From a virus: a DNA stretch of 23,458 nt. The notes beneath the pieces were generated by a model. The model was not told where the DNA came from. It ran no database searches and was given only the letters and a program-made list of their open reading frames with translations. Positions 10,455 through 13,341 of the stretch are shown here, piece after piece; the first letter of the stretch is position 1; every line of letters begins with the position of its first letter. The translations under genes were made by a program, and so were the position numbers. Location: IMG/VR virus record IMGVR_UViG_3300022818_000047, positions 1 to 23,458 of that record, one strand, 5' to 3'.

Positions 10455-10468
10455 AAAAGGAAGTTATC

Positions 10469-10957
10469 ATGGAATCGGACAACTTTAAAACCTTGTTGGA
10501 TTGGGTAATGCGCGAAGAGCAATTTTCGGCAACGGTCTTTTGGGACGTGGACGATTGGAGCGTCGGTTTCGGTAGGCACGGCGCGGCGCAAGGCGTAACC
10601 GAGAACACGGCTGTTACGCTTGAGACTGCCCGCCAGTGGTGCGTTGAGGATTTGATCGTCCGATATAAAGGCTGTGCAGAGTTGCTCGGAGAAGCCGCGT
10701 GGCAAGCCCTCTCGCCCATCCGCCAAGGATGCCTCGCCGCAATGGCCTACCAGATGGGCGTGGGCGGCGTGGAAAAATTTGTGAACACGCTCCAAGCGAT
10801 CAAGGAGGGGGATTGGGAGTTGGCTTTTAGCAATCTCTTGCAAAGCCGATGGGCGCAACAAACACCAGCACGCGCGCGCCGCACGGCAACCGCCATGCTG
10901 AATGACAAATGGCCCGACCCGAATACGCTGCCGCCGATTACGTGGGAGGACAACTAA
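10469..10957 (+). CDS. Endolysin: T4-type lysozyme (glycoside hydrolase family 24)
   Basis: Encodes 162 residues, close to the 164 of T4 lysozyme. It would cut the MurNAc-GlcNAc bonds of peptidoglycan to release progeny. The catalytic Glu17 and Asp26 keep the E-x8-D spacing of T4 lysozyme. Ser31 in WSVGFGRHG takes the place of the usual Thr and lies one residue nearer to the Asp. The C-terminal half is strongly T4-like: AMAYQMGVGGV, then SRWAQQTPARARRTATAML. AAAGGA lies seven bases before the chosen ATG, just after the previous gene's stop. There is no signal peptide, so export would depend on a holin; the next gene is a good candidate. Confidence 0.93.
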   Translation: MESDNFKTLLDWVMREEQFSATVFWDVDDWSVGFGRHGAAQGVTENTAVTLETARQWCVEDLIVRYKGCAELLGEAAWQALSPIRQGCLAAMAYQMGVGGVEKFVNTLQAIKEGDWELAFSNLLQSRWAQQTPARARRTATAMLNDKWPDPNTLPPITWEDN

Positions 10958-10958
10958 A

Positions 10959-11156
10959 ATGAAATTGACCACACTGTGGCTTCCCGAAGGAAGTGTTCGG
11001 GCAATTCTTTCAATCGGGCTGGTTGTTGTTTCGGGGTGGCTGGCGATCATGGAACCCGACAAATACGGGTTAATCGTCATGACAATGGCGGCAAACTGCT
11101 TTGGTTATTATTTTGGGGAGAGAAAGGGGAGCCAAGATGCCAACGAAAAAGTGTAA
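10959..11156 (+). CDS. Small two-helix membrane protein; holin candidate
   Basis: Encodes 65 residues. Two hydrophobic segments are visible, about residues 13-30 (VRAILSIGLVVVSGWLAI) and 37-52 (GLIVMTMAANCFGYYF), followed by a charged tail (GERKGSQDANEKV). This two-span form with a charged C-terminus is typical of class II holins, which make the membrane hole that releases endolysin. GGGAGGA at 10944-10950 sits eight bases before the ATG, and the gene begins one base after the lysozyme stop codon. Holin is the natural reading from topology and place, but there is no diagnostic family motif. Confidence 0.7.
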   Translation: MKLTTLWLPEGSVRAILSIGLVVVSGWLAIMEPDKYGLIVMTMAANCFGYYFGERKGSQDANEKV

Positions 11157-11289: not shown

Positions 11290-11344
11290 GTTTTATTGGC
11301 CTTTTCCCTATTGATACGGAAATGGTTTAGTTTTTTAAACAAGT

Positions 11345-11372
11345 TTGACTCTCACAAAACGCAAAATATGAG
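11345..11372 (+). promoter_or_regulatory. Weak promoter-like pair upstream of the lipoprotein cassette
   Basis: TTGACT at 11345-11350 and TATGAG at 11367-11372 are spaced by 16 bases. The -35 match is good (5/6) and the -10 match fair (4/6). If used, the transcript would carry the hairpins at 11417-11587 as its leader before the lipoprotein gene. Confidence 0.25.
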
Positions 11373-11536
11373 CGACAACGAATCTTGTGTTGCATAGATG
11401 GGCATCAAATTAGCAATGAGGATGACGAACACCTCACTAAAAACGGCTATCGAGACCCGCCTTAGCGGGTAACTATCCCATAAGTAAAGGAGCCTGCGAC
11501 TTTTAGTACCTCAATTACTGGGTGGTAATTCAGGCA

Positions 11537-11561
11537 CCGGGCGGAGTGATGATCCGCCCGG
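11537..11561 (+). terminator. GC-rich hairpin, terminator-like but lacking a U tract
   Basis: CCGGGCGGA pairs perfectly with TCCGCCCGG around a GTGATGA loop, a 9-bp stem. It is followed by CATTATTT and not by a run of T, so it is at best an imperfect intrinsic terminator. It could instead be part of a regulatory leader: its left arm can also pair with TCCGC at 11590-11594 beside the ribosome site of the next gene. Confidence 0.4.
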
Positions 11562-11565
11562 CATT

Positions 11566-11587
11566 ATTTCGTTGACGTCAACGAAAT
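11566..11587 (+). promoter_or_regulatory. Perfect 22-base palindrome, operator-like or hairpin
   Basis: The half-site ATTTCGTTGAC is followed directly by its exact reverse complement, centred between 11576 and 11577. It ends 20 bases before the lipoprotein start codon. A perfect palindrome without a loop suits binding by a dimeric protein; as RNA it would form a 9-bp stem with a four-base loop that could hinder ribosome access. No second copy was noticed elsewhere in the window. Confidence 0.5.
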
Positions 11588-11607
11588 GATCCGCAGGAAC
11601 CGAAACC

Positions 11608-11859
11608 ATGAAAAAACTACTTTGTTTGCTTGCAATGGCTGGCACGCTGGCCGCCTGTACCACGTTGACGTTTCCGACTCAGTGCGGCGACGCAACCGTT
11701 ACTGTACCATCGTTTATGACCGCTCAGGGGTTTGAACTCACTCGCACGTCGGACACGCTCCGTATCGTCTACACGCGCGGCACCGACCCGCAAGCAACCG
11801 CTCTGGTTACGGGCGTTGTTGCGGCTGCGGTAACGGCGGCGGCGAAGGGGGCGAAATGA
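11608..11859 (+). CDS. Small lipoprotein
   Basis: Encodes 83 residues. Residues 1-16 form a signal peptide ending in a lipobox (LAAC, Cys17), so the mature protein should be lipid-anchored in the envelope. The mature part is Thr/Val-rich with one further Cys and ends in an Ala/Val-rich hydrophobic stretch (TALVTGVVAAAVTAAA) that could insert in or lie on a membrane. AGGAA precedes the ATG at eight bases. The last codons overlap the peptidase gene by ATGA. It could be an outer-membrane spanin subunit, but it is not Pro-rich as many of those are; superinfection exclusion lipoproteins are another possibility. Confidence 0.8.
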   Translation: MKKLLCLLAMAGTLAACTTLTFPTQCGDATVTVPSFMTAQGFELTRTSDTLRIVYTRGTDPQATALVTGVVAAAVTAAAKGAK

Positions 11860-12990: not shown

Positions 12991-13113
12991 CATTGATTTT
13001 ACAGTAAGATGCGGTGGACATTTTTATGGACATTTACTCAAGAATTGTGGCATGTTGAATCCATAAGTCGTCGCCCCAAGCCTCTCCACGATGCTCACAC
13101 GGGGGTGCTGCAG

Positions 13114-13341
13114 TTAGGGTGAGGGACGCGTTACCTCGCAAATCGCCGATCCGCCATGTGTGGACACGGTAACGGAGCCGTCTGGAGATGTCCCAGGCGG
13201 CTCTTGCATTTTTAACAAACCTGTCAGCCGTTCAATCTCTGCCTTGGCGCGTTCCAGTTCGTCGGTCATCCGAATAATCACCAGCCCCATTGTCTCGTTT
13301 TCGTGAATGACGCGCTGGATGTCGATTGTGTTGCCTTTCAC
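13114..13341 (-). CDS. Small coiled-coil protein, GTG start
   Basis: Encodes 75 residues from GTG, preceded by AAGGGGAAGAA. Residues 5-45 are helical with a heptad-like pattern (ENETMGLVIIRMTDELERAKAEIERL); the C-terminal third is Pro/Gly/Ser-rich. No known family recognised. It is the last gene of the leftward operon, 123 bases from the convergent DUF1353 gene. Small coiled-coil proteins recur in this operon (13364, 17804, 16652), but I cannot say whether they are related. Confidence 0.6.
   Translation of the reverse strand: MKGNTIDIQRVIHENETMGLVIIRMTDELERAKAEIERLTGLLKMQEPPGTSPDGSVTVSTHGGSAICEVTRPSP

Follow-up and report, generated by a model that had tools for sequence, protein, structure and literature searches.

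A 22-base palindrome in the longest intergenic stretch of a phage genome fragment belongs to a dispersed family of dyad sites, AYCATTTY-N12-RAAATGRT with a self-complementary interior, and the existence of this family is well supported. Inside the bacterial DNA-damage gene dinD, the same palindrome is held at the DNA level across phyla by compensatory changes. The family is apparently undescribed so far: in the open-access literature, which as the only literature covered gives no proof, we found no description of the palindrome sequence or of a relevant DinD/Bro-N operator.

The stretch of DNA analysed (the window) is a 23,458-base IMG/VR phage record, itself a fragment, in which the gap at 11290-11607 lies within the late region. 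The preliminary description had called this gap exceptional, and with its 318 nt it is indeed the longest intergenic stretch of the window, the runner-up being 123 nt. The genes and elements in and around the gap are as follows.

10463-10957, plus strand: lysozyme/endolysin-like gene, 5′ of the gap
10959-11156, plus strand: gene for a holin-like 65-aa hydrophobic protein without family match
11489-11498, plus strand: 5′ strand of a predicted closing stem, GGAGCCTGCG (prediction only)
11506-11537, plus strand: imperfect AT-rich hairpin
11537-11561, plus strand: GC-rich 9-bp hairpin, CCGGGCGGA/TCCGCCCGG, with a weak T-run (CATTATTTCG), terminator-like
11563-11590, no strand assigned: 28-bp dyad site, ATTATTTCGTTGACGTCAACGAAATGAT, belonging to the dispersed family and differing by one base from the perfect L017-type site
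11567-11586, no strand assigned: 20-bp core, TTTCGTTGACGTCAACGAAA, matched in IMG/VR
11592-11601, plus strand: 3′ strand of the predicted closing stem, CGCAGGAACC (prediction only), containing a Shine-Dalgarno-like AGGA (11595-11598)
11608-11859, plus strand: small lipoprotein-like gene, 83 aa (MKKLLCLLAMAGTLAAC...), 3′ of the dyad site

No homologue of the gap was found, a scan of it for sigma-70 promoters found none, and searches with the NlpC-like, terminase, lipoprotein and holin-like proteins of the window (the holin-like query being misframed) returned no relatives.

The 22-base perfect palindrome reported at 11566-11587 is exact, and it can be lengthened to 28 bases (11563-11590) if a single broken pair, T opposite G, is allowed. 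Compared with AYCATTTY-N12-RAAATGRT, the window sequence has both half-sites apart from a single substitution at position 3 (T for C), and its inner 12 nt (GTTGACGTCAAC) are self-complementary in 6/6 pairs. The window record, a 23-kb fragment, contains one copy of the site at zero mismatch, which is intergenic and ends 17 nt before the start codon of the lipoprotein gene. Its exact 20-mer core was found in only three other IMG/VR contigs, which are unrelated and each of which carries it within a perfect 28-30 bp palindrome. No Bro-N match was found within the window record, and as it lacks a Bro-N or dinD neighbour, we class the window copy as a member of the sequence family but not as an autoregulatory operator.

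A relaxed scan of IMG/VR matched at least 120 stretches, and a scan with ACCATTTT-N12-AAAATGGT, the interior being left free, likewise matched at least 120; both figures are lower bounds on the size of the family. A control with the spacing changed to N10 gave 5 matches with non-complementary interiors; 117 of the N12 sites were read, and 67 of these 117 fit the stricter R..Y form used for that control. The outer arms were conserved, and the inner triplets were diverse (GTT, CGT, CCT, GCC, GCT, CCC, GGT and TCC) but varied in dyad symmetry. Covariation between the left and right inner positions, measured against shuffled half-sites in 99 independent groups, gave z values of 9.2, 6.1, 4.8 and 5.6 for the first four positions; locus-level clusters and k-mer groups were used for grouping, clustering by flanks having been dropped since it chained AT-rich sites into one large group. 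In eight related phages (L227, L242, L280, L300, L303, L314, L325 and L328), an orthologous site lies in a structured intergenic stretch with a strong hairpin (TGTTCCCGAAATCTGTTTCGGGAACA) directly after it; their flanks and outer arms are kept, while the inner triplets change type, in most cases in both halves. Template-switch correction of imperfect palindromes is a known process, and it could keep both arms identical without any present function, as the joint switching of both arms at these orthologous sites (CCT/AGG, GCT/AGC) would allow. Such mutational upkeep does not account for the outer ACCATTTT/AAAATGGT being conserved from phylum to phylum, for an inner spacing of exactly 12 nt or for the intergenic bias described below, and we consider it very unlikely.

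Copy number is about one per phage. Among 143 independent viral sites, 29% were within ORFs, against 78% for the background, and 42% were within 60 nt of a gene start, against 29%, which is a mild bias; neither divergent nor convergent gaps were favoured, and no orientation bias was seen relative to the flanking genes. The neighbouring genes are unrelated to each other. A phage-wide packaging, origin or terminator signal would agree with a single copy per phage and with the position of the site in Flavobacterium phage FpV9, immediately ahead of the terminase genes, and in the window the neighbouring hairpin at 11537-11561 is terminator-like, with 8 GC pairs in its 9-bp stem; the tail of this hairpin, CATTATTTCG, is interrupted, an intrinsic terminator being a GC stem followed by a T-run. 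We nevertheless regard such a signal as highly improbable, as the site elsewhere neighbours thyX, methylase, repressor, lysis or tRNA genes, occurs within the dinD genes of bacteria, and shows no enrichment between convergent genes. The packaging site that had been considered for the gap fares no better, the family being terminase-adjacent in only a few phages and the window terminase being located at 886-2415, with the site at 11563.

Three thyX phages (L049:12496-12731, L060:7313-7549 and L126:2475-2709) have a small membrane-protein gene of about 210 bp between two copies of the site, and in relatives of the thyX phages different genes follow the same site, which we read as modular gene exchange at the element. 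The main rival to a regulatory role, and one that this exchange supports, is a mobile or recombination element: a target or linker for cassette exchange, or else a small hairpin unit able to insert into intergenic positions. Such an element would suit the occurrence of single copies next to genes that are unrelated, in-frame copies in a few unrelated ORFs (L004, L085), and the resemblance of the layout, with 12-bp half-sites around a variable 2-bp centre, to the crossover sites of serine recombinases. It appears doubtful to us all the same, since integrases are not consistently near (5 matches among 141 site-neighbour proteins), no empty site has been demonstrated, and the codon constraint and compensatory swaps in dinD are left unexplained.

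These swaps were seen in cellular genomes. A search of about 85,000 bacterial and archaeal genomes gave 33 loci with ATTTCGTTGANNTCAACGAAAT, spread over many phyla, against a chance expectation of about 0.2-0.5 estimated by base counting. About 20 of the 33 loci were within one gene, dinD (NF008573), and the rest were intergenic or in unrelated frames. The dinD genes were then sampled from 595 genomes irrespective of the palindrome. For 35 distinct 30-mers, covariation was 0.392, compared with 0.154±0.014 for shuffled sets (0/500) and at most 0.169 for slid controls. Codons were found to swap jointly as the pairs GTT..AAC, GCC..GGC, CCC..GGG, CGT..ACG, TCC..GGG/GGA and GAG..CTC, with the amino acids of DinD following as V..N, A..G, P..G, R..T, S..G and E..L. 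In addition, TTT pairs with AAA, the partner of TTC is in most cases a codon beginning with G, and GAC..GTC was found 35 times and GAT..ATC 9 times, with no mixed combination. The His codon of the palindrome was CAT in 44/44 dinD genes, including those with high third-position GC, while another conserved His had mixed codons; the probability of this is about 1e-11 from gene codon usage, with the genes treated as independent. The paired codon swaps, the covariation and the invariant CAT rule out that the dinD copies are a mere chance of codon choice. In a predicted model, the residues encoded by the palindrome correspond to the first strand of the N-terminal beta-hairpin of DinD.

Several cellular copies directly adjoin dinD, rhuM or Bro-N genes, some of them in restriction-modification loci. 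One contig has a 44-bp palindrome upstream of dinD, one copy inside the gene, and two more by a type I restriction locus. In Cytophaga (L343; G002 C51), dinD was found together with type I restriction-modification, RtcB-like, TROVE-like and WYL-like genes, with four sites within about 9 kb; the last three gene names are presumed from our reading of the sequence. Copies of the same inner type are present on both sides of dinD in L344, and in L031 and L345 the site lies directly upstream of Bro-N genes whose products have DinD-matching C-termini, that of L345 being in a restriction-modification-like operon. The site is beside rhuM in L039 and L009 and at a DNA methyltransferase gene in L350. Extra self-complementary sites were found in 7 of 45 genomes with dinD and 1 of 40 without it, a small difference. 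It was also observed that two prophages of Streptococcus marmotae HTS5 (L351, L352) both have CGT-type sites, one inside dinD next to a repressor and the other upstream of a capsid/scaffold gene.

Comparison of a predicted DinD model (L032) with known structures revealed similarity to the fold of DdrC, a DNA-binding dimer of Deinococcus, with a Z score of 15.7 over residues 133-252 (next unrelated, 6.7). This suggests that the C-terminal domain of DinD has the DdrC fold and that DinD and Deinococcus DdrC are relatives; for the N-terminal Bro-N part, no match to a DNA-binding domain of solved structure was obtained.

Taken as a whole, the gap folded more strongly than its dinucleotide shuffles (z about -4.0 to -4.3). 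This excess is due to 11480-11607 alone (z -5.9), positions 11290-11480 behaving like shuffled sequence (z -1.07). Accordingly, of the five hairpins described earlier, those at 11506-11537 and 11537-11561 are real, and those at 11325, 11417 and 11455 fall in the shuffle-like stretch. The repeated element ATGATCCGC is present, as had been stated, at 11549-11557 and 11586-11594. An RNA switch operating through these two copies is not supported by pairing energy, the left arm forced onto the second copy giving -30.2 kcal/mol against -41.1 kcal/mol for the hairpin, about 11 kcal/mol worse, nor by the rate of chance repeats, as a 9-mer repeat occurs in 14% of shuffles. Comparison of the gap with Rfam covariance models gave no match at gathering score, only chance-level ones. 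It is possible that 11489-11498 pairs with 11592-11601 in an RNA fold that would bury the ribosome site, as the folding model predicts.

As another rival reading, the stem of the palindrome would act in the transcript, by protein binding or by masking of the ribosome site, and in the window it would be one element of the 11489-11601 fold. A stem agrees with the compensatory changes, many sites lie shortly before a start codon, and the fold at 11480-11607 has the Shine-Dalgarno sequence paired. We judge this to be quite unlikely, since the would-be stem carries A-A, C-A or T-C mismatches, not G-U, in many copies, some of them in the sense strand immediately ahead of genes such as thyX (three in the thyX phage group); conservation is in the outer stem and not the loop; and neither an orientation bias between flanking genes nor an Rfam match was found. 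Because so many copies have these stem-breaking mismatches, recognition at the DNA level is favoured.

The reading that we prefer, with less than even confidence, is that the site is a dyad DNA operator for a dimer of the DinD/Bro-N type. A putative homodimeric protein of the DinD/Bro-N/RhuM group would bind the site, with the outer half-sites AYCATTTY conserved and the inner triplet switching type, usually in both halves together. Proteins of the DinD type would control the genes that encode them by way of copies lying within or next to those genes in prophages and restriction-modification loci, and a phage carrying a single copy by one gene would place that gene under a DinD-type regulator in the cell, possibly a damage-responsive one. 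A search with phmmer near viral sites recovered essentially dinD alone. A Bro-N protein was encoded in only 3 of 42 site-bearing phage records; phage-encoded Bro-N proteins were thus rejected as the cognates of the phage sites, and it is the host or another prophage that would need to supply the regulator. Against an operator, a lone copy per phage by unrelated genes is unlike a regulon, the upstream bias and the difference between genomes with and without dinD are small, and joint switching of both halves exceeds what a simple dimer operator needs. A wider form of the operator reading, which strikes us as unlikely, is a pan-bacterial DNA code of switchable specificity, in which the inner triplet would be a compatibility type for DinD/Bro-N proteins and phages; the site within the regulator gene would change along with it, and a phage site would plug its gene into a damage-responsive circuit of the host or of a co-resident prophage.

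In the window, the operator reading would place the late lipoprotein gene under DinD-type control through the site before its start codon. A cis-acting element controlling this gene had been proposed in the preliminary description. Such an element directly upstream of the ribosome site of the gene is plausible, as the palindrome belongs to a conserved dispersed family, but the RNA-switch mechanism given for it is unsupported.

Two further features were noticed in the window. An abiF RNA (Rfam RF03085, 37.8 bits, gathering 37) is located on the plus strand at 13072-13108, between convergent genes, and no Abi_2/AbiF gene was found in the window record. In C. difficile, the abiF RNA is an RNA antitoxin, and abiF occurs near phage lysis modules (PMC12373285); on this basis, the isolated copy in this phage might serve as a decoy or as an anti-AbiF RNA. 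On the plus strand, 13174-13204 forms a GC-rich hairpin of 12 bp that has a T-run and resembles a terminator; it falls within the end of a minus-strand ORF, shortly after the point, at about 13 kb, where gene direction and GC skew change.

A palindrome that stays symmetric across phyla, although it forces paired amino-acid changes in the gene carrying it, is unusual. That phages unrelated to one another carry the same element, at about one copy per genome, suggests a common regulatory or recombination signal that has gone unrecognised and that links phages, prophage antirepressors and restriction-modification loci, and it offers a handle on the role of the DinD, RhuM and Bro-N proteins. An operator is a known kind of thing, but one that is intragenic, specificity-switching, pan-phylum and phage-shared would be a novel form of it.

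Among known systems, the DinD/Bro-N antirepressors and restriction-modification-associated proteins (NF008573, PF02498, PF13310) are those whose genes contain or adjoin the palindrome; no published operator was found for them, and most phage copies are not near such genes. The serine-recombinase sites hix, gix and res I, of about 26-28 bp with 12-bp half-sites and a 2-bp centre, are similar in size and half-site layout, but the dyad site has no linked recombinase and lies in conserved coding sequence. Rickettsia palindromic elements and REP-type repeats are short palindromes dispersed in and between genes, as is the dyad site, which differs from them in having about one copy per genome, in occurring in unrelated phyla, and in the symmetric switching of its inner triplets. 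CIRCE, the operator of HrcA, and parS-type sites are near-invariant palindromes common to distant bacteria because one protein family reads them. The dyad site is likewise a near-invariant palindrome across distant bacteria; unlike CIRCE and parS, it has inner triplets that switch symmetrically, copies inside a coding gene with compensating amino acids, copies across unrelated phages, and a reader protein that is putative.
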